A stretch of 64,000 bases of DNA from Psychroflexus torquis ATCC 700755 (GTDB lineage: Bacteria; Bacteroidota; Bacteroidia; Flavobacteriales; Flavobacteriaceae). Position 1 is the stretch's first letter. Every line of letters begins with the position of its first letter. The notes beneath the pieces are model-generated. The model made no database searches, had not been told where the DNA came from, and worked only from the letters and a program-made list of their open reading frames with translations. The position numbers and the translations under genes were made by a program. The stretch lies in contig NC_018721.1 in assembly GCF_000153485.2 (NCBI RefSeq), positions 2,480,001 to 2,544,000 of the forward strand, read 5' to 3'. This document shows, one piece after another, positions 3,446-64,000 of the stretch.

Positions 3446-4310
3446 AACAAATTATGCAGGAATTCCAGACAAGTATGCCCGTATCGACGAGGCGAAAGTT
3501 ATTCTAATTCCAGTTCCTTATGATGGAACAAGCTCTTGGCAAAAAGGAGCAGATAAAGGCCCTGAGGCTTTTTTAAAAGCTTCGGAAAATATGGAGTTGT
3601 ACGATATTGAAACCCGTACTGAAGTCTATAAAAAGGGTATTTATCTTGCGCCAGCAGTTTCAGAGAATAGCTCTCCAGAAAAAATGGTTGAGGCAGTGCA
3701 TAAAACCACTAAGAATTACATCAATCAAGATAAATTCGTCACTATTTTTGGAGGAGAACATTCGGTTTCAATAGGAACCATAAGGGCTTTTCATGACCAT
3801 TTTCCAGACCTTACTGTTCTTCAATTAGATGCTCATGCAGATTTGAGGCCCTCTTATGAAGGGAGTACTTGTAATCACGCTTGTGCTCTTCATGAAGCCA
3901 GCAAAAAAGGGAACCTTCTTCAAGTAGGTATTCGGTCTATGGATGTTTCTGAAGTAGAACATATGGACGAAAATCGCGTTTACTTTGCTCATGACTTATA
4001 TGAGGATTGGACTGAAGATGCCATTGGGCAAATGACCCCTAATGTTTTTATAACGATAGATCTAGACGCTTTTGATCCTTCTATTATGCCTTCTACAGGA
4101 ACTCCCGAGCCAGGTGGACTTTTTTGGTATGAGACTTTAGAATTCTTAAAAGAAATTTTCAAAAAGAAAAATGTGGTCGGATTTGATATTGTTGAGCTCT
4201 GTCCCAATGAAAAGGATAAATCTTCAGACTTTCTTGCTGCGAAACTTTATTATAAAATGTTGAGCTATAAGTTTAAATATGAAGATGGATATAAAGAGGA
4301 TGAGGAGTAG
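3435..4310 (+). CDS. speB: Agmatinase-type ureohydrolase
   Basis: Binuclear-Mn hydrolase that removes urea from agmatine to give putrescine. The 291-aa protein shows the arginase/agmatinase metal motifs in order: GGEHSVS, LDAHADLR and TIDLDAFDPS, with the usual C-terminal FDIVELCPN segment. It overlaps speA by 11 nt, which supports a product-to-substrate pairing with arginine decarboxylase. An alternative substrate such as N1-aminopropylagmatine is possible for ureohydrolases in such clusters and cannot be excluded from sequence. The operon probably continued directly into the deoxyhypusine-synthase-like gene before the repeat-flanked insert at 4311-5463 separated them (inference). Confidence 0.88.
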   Translation: MAFKTNYAGIPDKYARIDEAKVILIPVPYDGTSSWQKGADKGPEAFLKASENMELYDIETRTEVYKKGIYLAPAVSENSSPEKMVEAVHKTTKNYINQDKFVTIFGGEHSVSIGTIRAFHDHFPDLTVLQLDAHADLRPSYEGSTCNHACALHEASKKGNLLQVGIRSMDVSEVEHMDENRVYFAHDLYEDWTEDAIGQMTPNVFITIDLDAFDPSIMPSTGTPEPGGLFWYETLEFLKEIFKKKNVVGFDIVELCPNEKDKSSDFLAAKLYYKMLSYKFKYEDGYKEDEE

Positions 4311-4325
4311 ATTTTAAAGGTTTGA

Positions 4326-4580
4326 TAAATAGAAAAGAGAAAAGAGGAAAAAGAAAAAAGAGAATAGAACAAAGAGAGAATAGAACAAAGAGAGAATAGA
4401 ACAAAGAGAGAATAGAAAAGAGAAAATAGAAAAAAGAGGAAAAAGAGAATAGAACAAGGAGGAAATAGTAAAAGAGGATAGAGAGAGAATTGAACAAAGA
4501 GAGAATAGAGGAAAATAGAACAAGGAGTTTAGGGAAAAGAGCAAGGAGGAAATAGAAAAAGGTGTGTAAAGAGTAAGAAA
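4326..4580 (+). repeat. Left polypurine tract with 16-bp tandem repeat
   Basis: About 250 bp in which the plus strand is almost only A and G, with scattered T and C. It contains three perfect tandem copies of agagaatagaacaaag at 4359-4374, 4375-4390 and 4391-4406, followed by degenerate copies (gaatagaacaaggaggaaatag and similar). It starts about 15 bp after the speB stop. Minus-strand frames here encode only Phe/Leu/Ser-rich low-complexity peptides and are by-products of composition. Together with the tract at 4991-5325 it brackets the four-helix-bundle gene. Confidence 0.85.
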
Positions 4581-4637
4581 TGATTTAAGTACTGATGAAA
4601 ATTTAAAGTTGAGTGTATTATTTTAAAATCACTTCTA

Positions 4638-4991
4638 ATGGCTAAAAGGCACAACTATAAAAATTTGACTATTTGGAAATTGGGTCTTGAAATTGCTTTC
4701 AATATTTCTGATATTATAAAAAAGTTCCCTGAAATTGAAAGATTTGCACTCTCTGATCAAATGAATCGTTGTTCGATTTCTATACCGAGTAATATAGCAG
4801 AAGGCTCCGCTAGAAGTCAAAAAAGCTTTAAATATTATGTAAATATAGCAATGGGTTCTTCTTTTGAATTAGTCACACAATTAATTATTGCCAAACATAG
4901 AGCATATATTACAGAAGCCGAATTTGAAATGATAGAGGCTAAGATTGAGCATTTTCAACGAATGGCATCTGGTTTTCAAAATCAACTTTAA
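4638..4991 (+). CDS. Four-helix-bundle protein (23S rRNA IVP / S23 family)
   Basis: A 117-aa, all-helical protein of the family first described as encoded within 23S rRNA intervening sequences and related to the Avd accessory protein of diversity-generating retroelements. The diagnostic motifs are LTIWKLGLEIAFNISDI near the N-terminus, SDQMNRCSISIPSNIAEG in the middle and a helix ending in FQRMASGFQ. The molecular role of stand-alone members is unknown. Here it is not in rRNA: it sits between two polypurine tracts, with no other gene in the insert. It interrupts what looks like a speA-speB-deoxyhypusine-synthase operon. ATG at 4638 is the only reasonable start. Confidence 0.85.
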   Translation: MAKRHNYKNLTIWKLGLEIAFNISDIIKKFPEIERFALSDQMNRCSISIPSNIAEGSARSQKSFKYYVNIAMGSSFELVTQLIIAKHRAYITEAEFEMIEAKIEHFQRMASGFQNQL

Positions 4992-5325
4992 GTTAGGGAG
5001 AAGGACGGGAGAAGAGAAGAGAAGAGAAGAGAAAAAAGAACAAAGAAGAGAGCAAATGTGAAAGTACAAGGAGAAAAGAACAAAGACTAGAAGAGAAAAA
5101 AGGTGGAAGAACAAAGAAAATAGAAAAAAGAACAGAGAAGAGAGCAAAGGTGAAAGAACAAAGAAAATAGAAAAAAGAACAGAGAAGAGAGCAAAGGTGA
5201 AAGACCAAGGAGAAAAGAACAAAGACTAGAAGAGAAAAAAGGTGGAAGAACAAATAGAAGAGAAAATAGAAGAGAACAAGGACAAAGAAAGACAGAGAAT
5301 AAAGAAAATAGAGTAAAGAAGTTAG
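4991..5325 (+). repeat. Right polypurine tract with nested 47-bp and 49-bp repeats
   Basis: About 330 bp of purine-rich plus strand directly after the four-helix-bundle gene. It holds a 47-bp unit in tandem (5109-5155 and 5156-5202) and a 49-bp direct repeat at 5067-5115 and 5206-5254, 139 bp apart, both identical by eye. The motif agaacaaag is shared with the left tract, so both tracts come from the same repeat family. Such nested, near-identical units point to recent expansion by slippage or recombination. Confidence 0.85.
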
Positions 5326-5409
5326 CCAATAAAAAAATTAGAGTTTTTTAAAAAGATATTGAATGGCTAAAATCTACATCTTTTTGAAATTTAAATACAA
5401 CTATTAAAG

Positions 5410-5442
5410 TCCTTTTTCTTTGTTCTATTATCTTTTCTATTG
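5410..5442. repeat. Pyrimidine-rich inverted copy of the tract motif
   Basis: The plus strand reads tcctttttctttgttcta and continues to ttttctattg. Its complement contains tagaacaaagaaaaagga, the same motif as in the flanking polypurine tracts. It lies just upstream of the deoxyhypusine-synthase-like start (5464) and could pair with the upstream tract in RNA. Short enough that chance in this composition is possible. Confidence 0.45.
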
Positions 5443-5463
5443 TTTAAATTATATAAAAAAAAT

Positions 5464-6432
5464 ATGGGTAAACCTATTACAGACTTTATTGAAAAGTACT
5501 TTCTCCATTTTAATGCGGCAAGCCTAGTAGATGCTGCTAAAGCATACGGAAAGCAATTGGAGGGAGGGTCAAAGATGTTGGTATCTTTAGCTGGGGCTAT
5601 GAGTACAGCCGAACTTGGTAAAATATTTGCTGAGATGATTCGTCAGGACAAGGTACATATCATTTCTTGTACTGGGGCTAATTTAGAAGAAGACGTCATG
5701 AACTTGGTGGCTCATTCTCATTATAAGCGTGTTCCAGAATACAGAGATTTAACCCCCAAAGATGAGTGGAATTTACTAGAAAAAGGTTTAAATCGAGTTA
5801 CCGACACCTGTATTCCAGAAGAAGAGGCCTTTAGACGTATACAGAAGCATATCGTAAAAATCTGGAAAGAGGCTGAAGCTAAAGGAGAACGCTATTTACC
5901 TCATGAGTATTTGTATAAACTTCTGCTTTCTGATGTTTTGGAGGAGCATTACGAAATCGATCTTAAAGATTCTTGGATGTATGCAGCTGCGGAAAAGAAC
6001 CTGCCTATTGTAGTTCCAGGATGGGAAGATAGTACGATGGGGAATATATTTGCTAGCTATGTCATGAAAGGAGAGCTTAAAGCATCTACGGTTAAATCTG
6101 GGATTGAGTATATGACGTTCCTAGCCGATTGGTATACCGAAAATTCTAGACAAGGTATAGGATTTTTCCAGATTGGTGGTGGTATTGCTGGTGATTTCCC
6201 AATTTGTGTAGTTCCAATGCTTTACCAAGATATGGAAAGAACCGATACTCCTTTTTGGAGCTATTTCTGTCAAATATCAGATTCAACGACAAGTTATGGG
6301 TCGTATTCTGGAGCAGTTCCAAATGAGAAAATCACTTGGGGAAAACTGGATATAAATACTCCGAAATTCATTATTGAAAGTGACGCTACTATAGTAGCAC
6401 CGTTAATTTTTGCTTACCTATTAGAGATGTAA
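5464..6432 (+). CDS. Deoxyhypusine-synthase-like (putative homospermidine synthase) enzyme
   Basis: Member of the deoxyhypusine synthase fold, NAD-dependent enzymes that transfer an aminobutyl group to a lysine or to a polyamine. Bacteria lack eIF5A, so a polyamine acceptor is the usual proposal. The catalytic lysine is conserved as K294 in the WGK motif (KITWGKLD), and SLAGAMSTAELGK and QIGGGIAGDFPI match NAD/active-site segments. I start at ATG 5464 (322 aa, MGKPITDF), because the upstream in-frame TTG at 5440 lies in the pyrimidine-rich repeat. Its place after arginine decarboxylase and agmatinase supports use of putrescine or spermidine. Product (homospermidine, spermidine or other) is not decided by sequence. 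Confidence 0.82.
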   Translation: MGKPITDFIEKYFLHFNAASLVDAAKAYGKQLEGGSKMLVSLAGAMSTAELGKIFAEMIRQDKVHIISCTGANLEEDVMNLVAHSHYKRVPEYRDLTPKDEWNLLEKGLNRVTDTCIPEEEAFRRIQKHIVKIWKEAEAKGERYLPHEYLYKLLLSDVLEEHYEIDLKDSWMYAAAEKNLPIVVPGWEDSTMGNIFASYVMKGELKASTVKSGIEYMTFLADWYTENSRQGIGFFQIGGGIAGDFPICVVPMLYQDMERTDTPFWSYFCQISDSTTSYGSYSGAVPNEKITWGKLDINTPKFIIESDATIVAPLIFAYLLEM

Positions 6433-11741: not shown

Positions 11742-12683
11742 ATGGCAAACCCAATAGTAGTCAAGGATTTACTTGACGCTGGTGTACATTTCGGACACCT
11801 TACCAGACGATGGAATCCAAACATGGCTCCCTATGTATACATGGAGCGTAATGGTATTCACATCATCAACCTTTACAAGACAGTTGCTAAAATGGAAGAA
11901 GCTGGAGAAGCTCTTTCTAGAATTGCAGCAAGCGGAAGAAAAATACTTTTCGTCGCTACCAAAAAACAAGCTAAAGAAATTGTAGCTCAAGAATCTCAAA
12001 GAGCTCAGATGCCTTATATCACTGAAAGGTGGCCTGGTGGAATGTTGACAAATTTTGTCACCATTAGAAAATCAGTCAAAAAAATGGCAACTGTAGACCG
12101 TATGAAAAAAGACGGAACTTTCAATTCTCTTTCTAAAAAGGAAAGATTGCAAGTTGACAGGATGAGAGCTAAGCTTGAGAAAAACTTGGGGTCTATTTCA
12201 GAAATGTCTAGATTACCTGCTGCAATATTCGTTGTAGATACTTTAAGAGAACATATTGCGGTAAAAGAAGCACAAAAATTAAACATTCCTGTTTTTGCAT
12301 TGGTAGATACTAACTCTAATCCTAGAGATGTAGATTATGCTATCCCTGCTAATGACGATGCTTCAAAATCTATCCATAAAGTTATGTCTTATATGACAGA
12401 CTCTATTCTTGAAGGTTTAAACGAACGTAAAGACGGTAAAGACAGCGGAGAAGACAAACCTGCTAAAGCTAAAAAAGAAGCTAATGCTGATGAGAAGCCA
12501 GCTAAAGCCGAGAAAAAAGCAACAGCAGTAGAAGAAGCTCCTGAAAATAAAGCTAAAGAAGAAACTAATACTGAAGCCCAACCAGCAAACGCTGAAGAAA
12601 AAGCGGCAGTAGTAGAAGAAGTTCCAACTGAGAAAGCTGAGCCCAAAAAACCAGCTGGAGAAGAGAATAAAGCTTCAGAATAA
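11742..12683 (+). CDS. rpsB: 30S ribosomal protein S2 with long acidic/Ala-Lys tail
   Basis: Small-subunit protein S2, 313 aa. Residues 1 to about 228 are canonical (LLDAGVHFGHLTRRWNP, WPGGMLTNF, VVDTLREHIAVKEAQ, FALVDTNSNP). After ILEGLNERK comes a tail of about 85 residues, rich in Ala, Lys and Glu, with repeated PAKA / EKKA / VEE blocks. S2 is normally about 230-260 aa, so this extension is extra; shorter versions are known in related bacteria. The tail is probably disordered and its role is unknown. It lies between rpsI and tsf in the usual translation-gene order. Confidence 0.96.
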   Translation: MANPIVVKDLLDAGVHFGHLTRRWNPNMAPYVYMERNGIHIINLYKTVAKMEEAGEALSRIAASGRKILFVATKKQAKEIVAQESQRAQMPYITERWPGGMLTNFVTIRKSVKKMATVDRMKKDGTFNSLSKKERLQVDRMRAKLEKNLGSISEMSRLPAAIFVVDTLREHIAVKEAQKLNIPVFALVDTNSNPRDVDYAIPANDDASKSIHKVMSYMTDSILEGLNERKDGKDSGEDKPAKAKKEANADEKPAKAEKKATAVEEAPENKAKEETNTEAQPANAEEKAAVVEEVPTEKAEPKKPAGEENKASE

Positions 12684-59930: not shown

Positions 59931-60192
59931 TATATACTGGTATTAATCTGTCTTACTCATTTGGCTTTTCAGTTGCGCCCCGTTTATGTGGTGTCTGGAC
60001 TCCACTTTTTTTAAAAATTTGAGAGTTAAGATAGTAATTTTATTCCTTGAGATTCCCTTTGATCATAAATTTTGGTAAGCAGAAAATCCGGGGTCTTGAC
60101 TATTTCTGTTTATTTTATTGAATACGCTGTTGAACATATTTCATTTTACTTATTAAGTATCAGCATCTTAAATAATGGTTTAGTGATTGGTT

Positions 60193-60752: not shown

Positions 60753-61469
60753 ATGGATTTAACAGTTCTTTTAATCCTTACAGTCGGTGTTTTTATAGGG
60801 TTCTATGTCCAAACAGTCATTGGTTTTGCAGGGTCTTTAATTGCTTTGCCTATTCTTCTCTTGGGCATGCAATTACAAGATGCAATTGCATACATCTCAA
60901 TTTTCTACTTGTTTTCAAGTGCTTTTTTAATTACCAAAGAATGGAAAAATATAGATAAAAAGATAATTTTTAAACTTGCCATCACTTCAGTAATAGGGGT
61001 TATTTTAGGAATTACATTGCTTACTTATTCAAAACCTATAGTATTAAAAAAGGGACTTGGAGTCTTTATTTTATTATATGTAGCTTATGTTTTATATGGT
61101 AAAAAGAAGATAAAGTTAAATAAAGGAGGTGTTATTAGCTTTGGAGTTATAGCTGGTTTTTTTTCAGGTTTATTTTCTACAGGAGGTCCTCTTTATGTTA
61201 TATGTATAGAAAACTCTGTAAAAGATATCAAAGCATTAAGAGCAACTATGATAGGGGTTTTGGGGCTTGTTACCTTGACACGGGTTCCTGCGCTAGCTGT
61301 AAGTGGAATATTGAAATTTAGCCATTTAGAAATGACACTCTTGGTCTTCCCTGTTTTTCTATTTGCTCAATTTTTAGGGAAACGAACTTTTATAAAGATT
61401 AATGAATCTGGATTTAAAAAATTATTGATGGTTCTTTTATGTGTTTCAGGTCTTATTCTTATAGTTTAA
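60753..61469 (+). CDS. TauE/SafE-family (sulfite exporter-like) permease
   Basis: 238-aa inner-membrane protein with seven to eight TM helices and the duplicated TauE/SafE pattern: VQTVIGFAGSLIALPILLLG in the first half and GFFSGLFSTGGPLYVICIEN in the second. Members move sulfite, sulfonates or other small anions out of (or into) the cell; substrate unknown. It is divergent from the Lrp-family regulator, which probably controls it. Immediately after its stop codon begins a hipA remnant. Confidence 0.87.
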   Translation: MDLTVLLILTVGVFIGFYVQTVIGFAGSLIALPILLLGMQLQDAIAYISIFYLFSSAFLITKEWKNIDKKIIFKLAITSVIGVILGITLLTYSKPIVLKKGLGVFILLYVAYVLYGKKKIKLNKGGVISFGVIAGFFSGLFSTGGPLYVICIENSVKDIKALRATMIGVLGLVTLTRVPALAVSGILKFSHLEMTLLVFPVFLFAQFLGKRTFIKINESGFKKLLMVLLCVSGLILIV

Positions 61470-61471
61470 AA

Positions 61472-61702
61472 CCGTGGCCACAGGGCATTAGTATTTCCCA
61501 TACAACAAATCAACTCTTAGTAAGAATGATATATCTAAGAAGTACCTTTCAAGGCTTGCCGCCTATGATAGCAGATTCGTTGCCAGACACCTTTGGTCAT
61601 ATCATTTTTCAAGAATGGTTAACGCCTAGAGGAATTTAAAAAGTAACACCATTAGAACAATTAGCCTATGTGTCAGATCTCGGTATGGGAGCGCTCGAAT
61701 AC
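61472..61702 (+). pseudogene. Fragment of a HipA-type toxin kinase gene
   Basis: The plus frame reads STFQGLPPMIADSLPDTFGH and IIFQEWLTPRGI, then an in-frame TAA (61637-61639), then KVTPLEQLAYVSDLGMGALE. This is the conserved HipA N-terminal region (F-x-GLP-x-x-x-ADSLPD-x-FG ... TP-x-E-x-L-x-Y-x-x-x-x-GMGAL-x-x). The homology ends exactly where the 183-bp repeat array begins (61701). Neither hipB nor the HipA kinase core is present, so the system is dead. Confidence 0.8.
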
Positions 61703-64000
61703 AAATCTTCCTCCTGTCATGCAGAATTTATTTCAGCATCTCTCATTAACAACTTTACCATATTGTTACTCCCAGCAGTCAACGCACATCAACGAATAAA
61801 CACATCACGACTTAAGCATTCATCTTCTGAATCTCCATCTCAGCAATTTGCTGCTTAAGCCAGAACCTGAAATAAATTCAGGGTTACAAATCTTCCTTCT
61901 TTTAAGCTGAATTTATTTCAGCATCTCTTATTAACAACTTCACTATATTACTATTCCCAGCAGTCAAGGCATCAACGCATAAACACATCACGAACTAACT
62001 AGTCATCTCCTGAATCTTCATCTCGGCAATTTGTTGCTTAAGCCAGACCCTGAAACGGATTTATGGTGACAAATCCTCCTTCTGTTAAGCTGAACTTATT
62101 TCAGCATCTCTTGTTAACAACTTCACTACATCGCTATTCCCAGCAGTCACCGCATCTACGAATAAACACATTACGACCTAACTAGTCATCTTCGGAATCT
62201 CGATCTCGGTAATTTTTTGCTTAAGCCAGACCCTGAAATAAATTCAGGGTGACAAATCCTCCTTCTGTCATGCTGAATTTATTTCAGCATCTCTTGTTAA
62301 CAACTTCACTACATCGCTATTCCCAGCAGTCAACGGATCAACGAATAAACACATCACGACTTAAGCATTTATCTTCTGAATCTCGATCTCGGTAATTTTT
62401 TGCTTAAGCCAGAACCTGAAATAAATTCAGGGTGACAAATCCTCCTTCTGTCATGCTGAATTTATTTCAGCATCTCTCATTAACAACTTTACCATATTGT
62501 TACTCCCAGCAGTCAACGCATCAACGCATGAACACATCACGACCTAACTAGTCATCTTCTGAATCTCCATCTCAGCAATTTGTTGCTTAAGCCAGACCCT
62601 GAAATAAATTCAGGGTTACAAATCTTCCTCCTGTCATGCTGAATTTATTCCAGCATCTCTTGTTAACAACTTCACTACATCGCTATTCCCAGCAGTCAAG
62701 GCATCAACGAATAAACACATCACGACCTAACTAATCATCTCCTGAATCTCGATCTCGGCAATTTTTTGCTTAAGCCAGATCCTGAAACGGATTTATGGTG
62801 ACAAATCCTCCTTCTGTCATTCTGAATTTATTTCAGCATCTCTTATTAACAACTTCACTACATTACTATTCCTAGCAGTCAACGCATCAACGAATAAACA
62901 CATCACGACCTAACTATTCATCTCCGGAATCTCGATCTCGGTAATTTGTTGCTTAAGCCAGACCCTGAAATAAATTCAGGGTGACAAATCCTCCTTCTGT
63001 CATGCTGAATTTATTTCAGCATCTCTCATTAACAACTTTACCATATTGTTACTCCCAGCAGTCAACTCATAAACACATCACGACCTAACTAGTCATCTCC
63101 GGAATCTCCATCTCGGTAATTTGTTGCTTAAGCCAGACCCTGAAACGGATTTATGGTGACAAATCCTCCTTCTGTCACGCTGAATTTATTTCAGCATCTC
63201 TTATTAACAACTTCACTATATTACTATTCCCAGCAGTCAACGGATCAACGAATAAACACATTACGACCTAAGCATTTATCTTCTGAATCTCGATCTCGGT
63301 AATTTTTTGCTTAAGCCAGACCCTGAAATAAATTCAGGATGACAAATCCTCCTTCTGTCATTCTGAATTTATTTCAGCATCTCTTATTAACAACTTTACT
63401 ATATTTTTATTCCCAGCAGTCACCGCATCAACGAATAAGCACATCACGACCTAACTAGTCATCTCCGGAATCTCCATCTCGGTAATTTGTTGCTTAAGCC
63501 AGATCCTGAAATAAATTCAGGGTTACAAATCCTCCCTCTGTCATTCTGAATTTATTTCAGCATCTCTTATTAACAAATTCACTATATCGCTATTCCCAGC
63601 AATCAATGCATCAACGAATAAACACATCACGACCTAACTAGTCATCTCCATAATCTTCATCTCGGTAATTTGTTGCTTAAGTCAGACCCTGAAACGGATT
63701 TATGGTGACAAATCCTCCTTCTGTCATTCTGAATTTATTTCAGCATCTCTTGTTAACAACCTCACTATATTACTATTCCCAGCAGTGAACGCATCAACGG
63801 ATTAATACATCACGATCTAACTAGCCATTTCTGGAATCACCATCTCAGCAATTTGCTGCTTAAGCCAGACCCTGAAATAAATTCAGGGTGACAAATCCTC
63901 CTTCTGTCATCCTGTTCTGAAGCATCTCTTATTAACAACTTTACTATATTTTTATTCCCAGCAGTCACCGCATCAACGAATAAGCACATCACGACCTAAC
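61701..64000 (+). repeat. Tandem array of a 183-bp non-coding unit, at least 12 copies
   Basis: Units begin (at acaaatc) at 61701, 61886, 62069, 62252, 62435, 62618, 62801, 62984, 63159, 63342, 63525, 63708 and 63891; spacing is 183 bp in ten cases, once 185 and once 175. The array continues past the window end. Every junction holds a 22-bp inverted repeat (for example ctgaaataaattcagggtga... at 62233-62254 and its partner at 62266-62287, 20 of 22 pairs). Two alleles of the unit end exist: a palindromic ccctgaaataaattcaggg and a non-palindromic ccctgaaacggatttatgg. All six frames contain stops in each unit, so it is not a repeat protein. Confidence 0.93.

Follow-up and report, generated by a model that had tools for sequence, protein, structure and literature searches.

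We analysed a window of 64,000 nucleotides of the Psychroflexus torquis ATCC 700755 genome (positions 2480001-2544000 of a single contig of 4,321,832 bp), whose right end is occupied by a tandem array with a period of 183 bp. We conclude, with a probability of about 0.72, that this array is a satellite-like tandem amplification of one tail-to-tail dimer of TGTC-tagged repetitive extragenic palindromes (REPs) together with ~116 bp of neighbouring DNA, and that it is a passive repeat with no selected function of its own. We favour such an amplification because other arrays of the same genome share the palindromes but have non-matching spacers, and because a relative holds one unit where another P. 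torquis array has 14.

The 183-bp array and its units

Tandem Repeats Finder reported 12.6 copies with 86% matches between window positions 61701 and 64000 and, when the fetched continuation past the window end was included, 15.3 copies reaching to 64484. An insert of ~215 bp with inverted ends TACCAAATTA / TAATTTGGTA (~64486-64701) splits one unit, and a last partial unit lies beyond it (~64700 to ~64846, from Tandem Repeats Finder and a DNA search of the own genome), giving about 16 units for the whole array. An initial annotation, made from the letters of the window, had described at least 12 units of almost constant length between 61701 and 64000; the repeat is real and its start was well placed, but it passes the window edge that had been taken as its end. 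The insert (3487-3702 of locus L034) looks like a miniature inverted-repeat transposable element, and an element at another locus, L058, has the same inverted ends.

The 15 anchor-to-anchor spacings were 183 bp in ten cases and 185, 175, 179, 184 and 167 bp once each. The near-constant length annotated initially is thereby confirmed. Pairwise identity among 15 units ranged from 77 to 95% (the 16th unit, which the insert interrupts, did not enter the comparison), and it was highest between units at lag 3 (88.4% vs 85-87% at other lags), a weak higher-order period. Tandem repeats are often mis-assembled and the copy number here rests on the assembly, not on reads, but the units differ by 5-23% and one holds an insert, so that duplication of a single unit during assembly does not account for the array; we therefore regard an assembly artefact as very improbable.

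No open reading frame (ORF) of at least 60 aa with an ATG, GTG or TTG start lies wholly inside the array on either strand, in agreement with the lack of coding capacity annotated initially, and a 62-aa ORF overlaps its left edge. Thus a coding satellite was rejected, even though 183 is divisible by 3. An Rfam scan of the window found no RNA family at the array, its only match being a DUF805 cis-regulatory RNA elsewhere (59946-60010, minus strand, 72.1 bits). A phage or plasmid repeat was also rejected: two units (62252-62617) had no match in phage or plasmid collections at E 1e-5. The initial annotation would have been overturned by identity to a known insertion sequence or phage repeat; none emerged from these collections, though ordered REP arrays as such have already been described.

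Palindromes at the unit junctions

Each unit junction consists of two facing palindromes whose tags are 11 nt apart, that is, a tail-to-tail dimer. In a good unit the junction reads CAG-ACCCTGAA-ATAAA-TTCAGGGT-GACA, 11 nt, TGTC-ATGCTGAA-TTTAT-TTCAGCAT-CTC, in which the left partner has an ACCC stem and the right partner ends in the tail CTC. We folded one junction and one spacer stretch as DNA. The 71-nt junction (62405-62475) formed a hairpin of 15+6 pairs with an 11-nt loop at -18.3 kcal/mol (z -6.95; 0 of 200 shuffles equally good), which bears out the inverted repeat with 22-bp arms and an 11-nt spacer that had been annotated, and the spacer stretch gave nothing outstanding (z -0.67).

Stems were counted over 15 junctions, the 16th, near 64224, being missed by the anchor. 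Of the 15, 6 have a fully paired left stem, 4 a fully paired right stem and 3 both, and allele AAACGGATTTATGG disrupts the left palindrome in 5 of 15 units. The small perfect hairpins annotated initially (ccctgaa/ttcaggg and atgctgaa/ttcagcat) are present, but the palindromes are often imperfect. As a purely descriptive comparison, alignment columns had a mean identity of 0.94 for the right palindrome, against 0.90 for the left one and 0.913 for the remainder of the unit. We saw no selection on the hairpins inside the array.

The bacterial interspersed mosaic elements (BIMEs) of E. coli bind host proteins such as gyrase, IHF and Pol I, and their palindrome differs in sequence from that of the array. 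A binding-site cluster for gyrase, IHF-like or other nucleoid proteins has been proposed for BIMEs, and the array could be a selected structural element of the same kind; a structural or protein-binding role had also been put forward in the initial annotation. The strong hairpin of one unit (z -6.95) would suit such an element, as would the functional roles suggested for ordered REP arrays (PMC3116915). We nevertheless consider this reading unlikely. The role is unsupported because both stems are intact in only 3 of the 15 dimers examined; furthermore, conservation of the palindromes does not clearly exceed that of the spacer, the left palindrome is broken in 5 of 15 units, the Psychroflexus gondwanensis record has no array at the locus, and the spacer was unmatched in 39 other genomes.

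Shuffling of variants between units

We analysed linkage at 39 two-state sites in 15 units (741 site pairs). All four combinations occurred at 379 of the 741 pairs, and mean r2 fell from 0.46 at 1-5 bp to 0.26 at 5-15, 0.11 at 15-30, 0.09 at 30-60 and 0.08 at more than 60 bp. In 2000 position shuffles, an equally negative correlation between r2 and distance never arose. Because the variants are shuffled and r2 declines with distance, these data fit unequal exchange or short conversion between units; unequal exchange had been suggested in the initial annotation from sequence drift at regular length.

We infer that fork stalling and recombination were involved in forming the array. REP hairpins would stall or slip the replication fork and so produce the initial tandem duplication, after which unequal exchange by homologous recombination, with short conversion tracts, would change the copy number and keep the units alike. 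The resulting array would have no selected function of its own.

A dispersed family of TGTC-tagged palindromes

By sequence, the array palindromes are members of a dispersed family that has the geometry described for the CGTC/TGTC-tagged REP superfamily. The looser pattern GTCANNCTGAAN{3,8}TTCAG had 61 exact matches in the own genome against 1 for the reversed control. Of 295 genomes sampled from the class, 50, the own genome among them, had exact matches to the pattern TGTCANNCTGAANNNNNTTCAG, and the reversed-pattern control columns of the table were 0; this bears out the initial annotation in that TGTCA-x-CTGAA palindromes are scattered in Bacteroidota. A two-unit query matched 14 of 40 genomes, again counting the own one. 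Outside the array, both in the own genome and in relatives, the matched stretches are centred on the palindromes, extending at most ~25 bp into the spacer; no spacer-wide match was found elsewhere in the own genome or in the 39 others. The search for single copies of the unit that had been proposed initially therefore recovered the palindromes but not the spacer.

We surveyed the outer stem pairs at 26 loci outside the array, comprising three array regions and 11 further loci of P. torquis and 12 loci of relatives. All three variable outer pairs form in 58 of 81 strict-core copies, through four alternative sets (ACC/GGT in 22, ATG/CAT in 21, ATT/AAT in 14 and ATC/GAT in 1), and so the variation is compensated. 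Copies within one array are not independent; with one count per locus and arm type, all outer pairs are formed in 29 of 42. Within the 183-bp array the figure is 9 of 18.

An exact pattern of the tail-to-tail dimer was found in 4 of the 295 genomes, with six forward matches in P. torquis (five of them in the 183-bp array), 21 in a genome designated G195 and one each in G164 and G238. In G195 the pattern matched 21 times on each strand, and the five dimers read from this genome share their ends (AGATCCTGAA...TTCAGGATCT) and resemble each other in the inner gap (~35 nt), while their flanks are unrelated. A dispersed miniature element would be expected to look like this. The exact head-to-head pattern was found in 2 of 295 genomes; the exact dimer patterns miss imperfect head-to-head dimers such as those of locus L036.

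Four single sites of P. torquis were compared with G022, the closest of 24 genus-mates searched (87-90% DNA identity in the stretches compared). Three are common to both genomes in altered form. At the fourth, L060, homology ends before the element, which is therefore either missing from G022 or displaced there. At another orthologous site the REP of G022 (L106) has 30 additional loop bases relative to that of P. torquis (L065). By eye, head-to-head REP dimers or their remnants lie inside a larger terminator-like inverted repeat at L058, L060, L066 and the 155-bp array described below (L064), and the L060 stretch folded as RNA gave z -5.55. An inversion of L066 relative to its G022 counterpart was considered, and direct alignment showed none.

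Other arrays of the genome and the one-to-14 comparison

The P. torquis genome has at least three further arrays on the TGTC palindrome, two of which use imperfect head-to-head dimers: a 155-bp array of 14.1 copies (genome positions 2182039-2184193), a 367-bp array of 2.4 copies at 97% (2751758-2752644) and a 50/99/215-bp mosaic array (3963726-3964631). The 183-bp spacer had no match in six own array or cluster loci or in L081, and gave two matches of 14-16 bp in 12 loci of relatives. Among the 12 loci read from relatives, G010 has arrays of the palindrome with periods of 50 bp (94% and 98%) and 24 bp (92% and 97%). Sequence beyond the REP dimer of the 367-bp unit is common to the own locus L037 and loci of G022, so that the unit and these loci form one longer intergenic repeat family (L036, L037, L073). 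Two own clusters, L067 (3595591-3596766) and L068 (3701277-3703093), consist of a second palindrome type (TGTCATTCCGAC...GTCGACGAGGAATCTC-like) whose core, TGTCATTCCGAC, is distinct though related; most of their periods fall between 45 and 160 bp.

The locus of the 155-bp array (L064) has an equivalent in G022, matched at 89% over L064 1-1705 and at 88% over 4195-6001. These flanks are ~780 bp apart in G022 vs 2,490 in P. torquis, and G022 holds one unit where P. torquis has 14. Twelve of the 14 copies align to the G022 unit at 82-85% over 137-186 bp, and the first and last copies align within longer matches that include the flanks, at 80% and 72%. In full-length alignment the 14 copies are 71-85% identical to the G022 unit, the four indel-bearing copies being lowest, and they average 84.9% to each other (70-96%). 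The 155-bp array is best read as an amplification in the P. torquis lineage.

Several observations weigh against our interpretation of the 183-bp array as a passive amplification. A single-unit ancestor was not found: the spacer is absent from the 39 other genomes, and in P. gondwanensis the place of the array is taken by an unrelated gene of 1119 aa. The one-to-14 case concerns an array built on a head-to-head dimer and the 183-bp array is built on a tail-to-tail dimer, so the comparison supports the process and not the history of the 183-bp array itself; a contraction in G022, with loss of units there, is also conceivable for the 155-bp locus. Conservation is slightly higher in the right palindrome than in the spacer (0.94 vs 0.913), and short-range linkage between variants could partly come from multi-base mutations. 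Finally, the authors of PMC3116915 read ordered REP arrays as suggesting specific functional roles.

Comparison with known repeat systems

The array type is already known. In Pseudomonas fluorescens SBW25, GI and GIII REPs form ordered tandem arrays, and REPINs (REP doublets forming hairpins) form tandem clusters that include flanking DNA; GI and GIII are 112 and 72 bp apart, with a peak at 184 bp, and the two largest arrays each hold 12 GI and GIII sequences (PMC3116915). The present array likewise has REP palindromes head to tail in ordered arrays with the flanking DNA repeated too, and an inverted REP doublet can fold as one hairpin, as in a REPIN, judging from the fold of one junction and from the five dispersed G195 dimers. 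The authors inferred a second mechanism of cluster formation and suggested functional roles, for which, unlike them, we found no support here. SBW25 REPs are linked to REP-associated tyrosine transposases (RAYTs), whereas the repeat here is TGTC-tagged and no Y1 transposase match has it within 1.5 kb (0 of 13 Y1_Tnp loci); a RAYT-linked REPIN was thus rejected.

In tag, stem and loop the palindromes agree with the CGTC/TGTC superfamily, which has been reported from Bacteroidetes among five phyla and has no known mobiliser (PMC3733652). Its repeats have TGTC as a variant tag, a stem of 8-9 bp that almost invariably starts with AT, a loop of 4-5 nt and a 3-nt unpaired tail, mostly CCA (PMC3733652). 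Here too the TGTC tag stands beside an 8-bp stem (ATGCTGAA/TTCAGCAT) starting with AT, with a 5-nt loop, TTTAT, and a 3-nt tail, and the repeat flanks no transposase gene as far as the Y1_Tnp family is concerned. In contrast, the partner stem starts with AC, and the tails are CTC or CTG, CCA fitting most but not all published CGTC repeats; these features were compared with the published description, at the level of the superfamily. Head-to-head dimers predominate in the superfamily, tail-to-tail dimers and clusters being rare (PMC3733652). In our sample exact matches gave tail-to-tail dimers in 4 and head-to-head dimers in 2 of 295 genomes, a count that misses the two P. torquis arrays of imperfect head-to-head dimers.

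Neisserial intergenic mosaic elements combine dRS3 palindromes with longer RS repeats in intergenic arrays of 200-2700 bp (PMC3898611). The array resembles them in joining short palindromes with longer repeats, but the dRS3 core is ATTCCC-N8-GGGAAT rather than CTGAA-N5-TTCAG, and there are several RS families as opposed to one spacer here (PMC3898611). E. coli BIMEs have regularly spaced REPs in alternating orientation (PMC2817692), and the array shares both the even spacing and the alternation. By title, our literature search met no report of such arrays in Psychroflexus or of tandem CGTC repeats in Bacteroidota, most subscription papers lying outside the search; the word 'tandem' does not occur in the accessible text of the RepRanger paper (PMC12306157).

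A dedicated enzyme, either a Y1/HUH transposase or another recombinase, might instead act at REP dimers and build the arrays there, either by inserting repeatedly or by rolling amplification. The genome has 13 Y1_Tnp matches, some of them broken, the G195 dimers resemble dispersed miniature elements with fixed ends, and dRS3 is the target of a filamentous-phage integrase in Neisseria (PMC3898611). Yet none of the 13 Y1_Tnp loci has such a palindrome within 1.5 kb, even with two substitutions allowed, and none of the tyrosine transposase genes in PMC3733652 was found to be flanked by CGTC repeats. Moreover, the array units extend into the DNA next to the dimer, and this DNA would not be copied if only the dimer were inserted again and again. 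An enzyme of this kind is accordingly a doubtful explanation, and we retain tandem amplification of the dimer with its adjoining DNA.

The locus and its neighbours

The features of the locus are collected in Table 1. P. gondwanensis matches the window up to 61521 on the TauE side and resumes at 64843; between the two matched sides it has the 1119-aa gene and no array. The CTGAA-N(3-8)-TTCAG palindrome was not found in the 16.7-kb P. gondwanensis stretch. By this comparison the presence of the array at the locus differs between the two species. To our eye, the lead-in before the array and an ORF at 61439-61639 may form a broken N-terminal fragment of hipA, with a Pfam match below the cut-off.

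Table 1. Positions of the array, its example parts and the adjoining features in the window
Feature	Position	Strand	Evidence
TauE/SafE-type permease (PF01925, E 3.2e-28), left neighbour gene, 94% identical to Psychroflexus gondwanensis ACAM 44	60753..61469	+	Pfam, protein comparison
Lead-in between the end of the P. gondwanensis match and the array	61522..61700	+	Pfam Couple_hipA below cut-off, E 0.21
183-bp tandem array, part within the window	61701..64000	.	Tandem Repeats Finder, own-genome DNA search; runs on to 64484, last partial unit ~64700-64846
Example left palindrome disrupted by allele ACCCTGAAACGGATTTATGGT (5/15 units)	62047..62067	.	Unit alignment, stem count
Left REP of an example dimer: CAG tail, ACCCTGAA stem, ATAAA loop, TTCAGGGT stem, GACA tag (minus-strand TGTC)	62227..62254	-	Sequence read on plus strand; pattern match at genome 2542233
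Gap between facing tags, 11 nt	62255..62265	.	Sequence; following junction folded as DNA
Right REP of that example dimer: TGTC tag, ATGCTGAA stem, TTTAT loop, TTCAGCAT stem, CTC tail	62266..62293	+	Sequence; pattern matches at genome 2542266-2542287
Example unit spacer, 116 bp	62294..62409	.	DNA searches of own genome and 39 relatives: no spacer-wide match

At ~510 bp beyond the right end of the array, a tyrosine recombinase gene with the domain Phage_int_SAM_5 begins. Together with the regular spacing of the palindromes, it raises the idea of an integron-like cassette array in which the palindromes would be attC-like recombination sites. Such an array is hardly credible here: the integron integrase model TIGR02249 gave 26 matches, all of them below its 265-bit cut-off (best gene 113.5 + 77.6 in two pieces), the integrase signal was equally weak in 14 of 14 control genomes, the units have one common spacer and not differing cassettes, and the neighbouring recombinase is of the Phage_int_SAM_5 type.

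On this side of the array, a 1,796-bp segment that includes a tyrosine integrase gene (L034 4113-5908 vs L081 13219-15014) is 100% identical to P. gondwanensis. Because identity in its matched flanks is 86-92% to the left and 98% to the right, the segment suggests recent horizontal transfer. Next to it, a ~1.1-kb insertion with a DDE_3 transposase (L034 5909-7019), not in P. gondwanensis, truncates a small ORF beside the integrase. A tRNA at the right flank was rejected: a tRNA-like 3' half was seen by eye near 65110, and ARAGORN found none in L034 or L081. Elsewhere in the window, A-rich and GA-rich tandem repeats, whose periods range from 5 to 139 bp, lie in and around short ORFs at 4327-5276, and an 84-bp tandem repeat of 1.9 copies (12464-12625) lies inside the ORF 11742-12683.

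Implications for REP arrays in Bacteroidota

In one other Bacteroidia genome, G195, the tail-to-tail dimer was seen as a dispersed unit. We also put forward, tentatively and as a rather improbable reading, that TGTC-tagged REP dimers of either orientation are nuclei of satellite formation in Bacteroidota, which would repeatedly turn adjoining DNA into arrays through a specific, possibly enzyme-driven process. If this is true, one genome would carry several different satellites having only the dimer in common. With ordered REP arrays already known as a type, most of the interest lies in the one-to-14 comparison and in the sharing of a palindrome type by several arrays: such arrays in one genome, together with a locus at which a relative has a single unit, make the step from one unit to many open to study.
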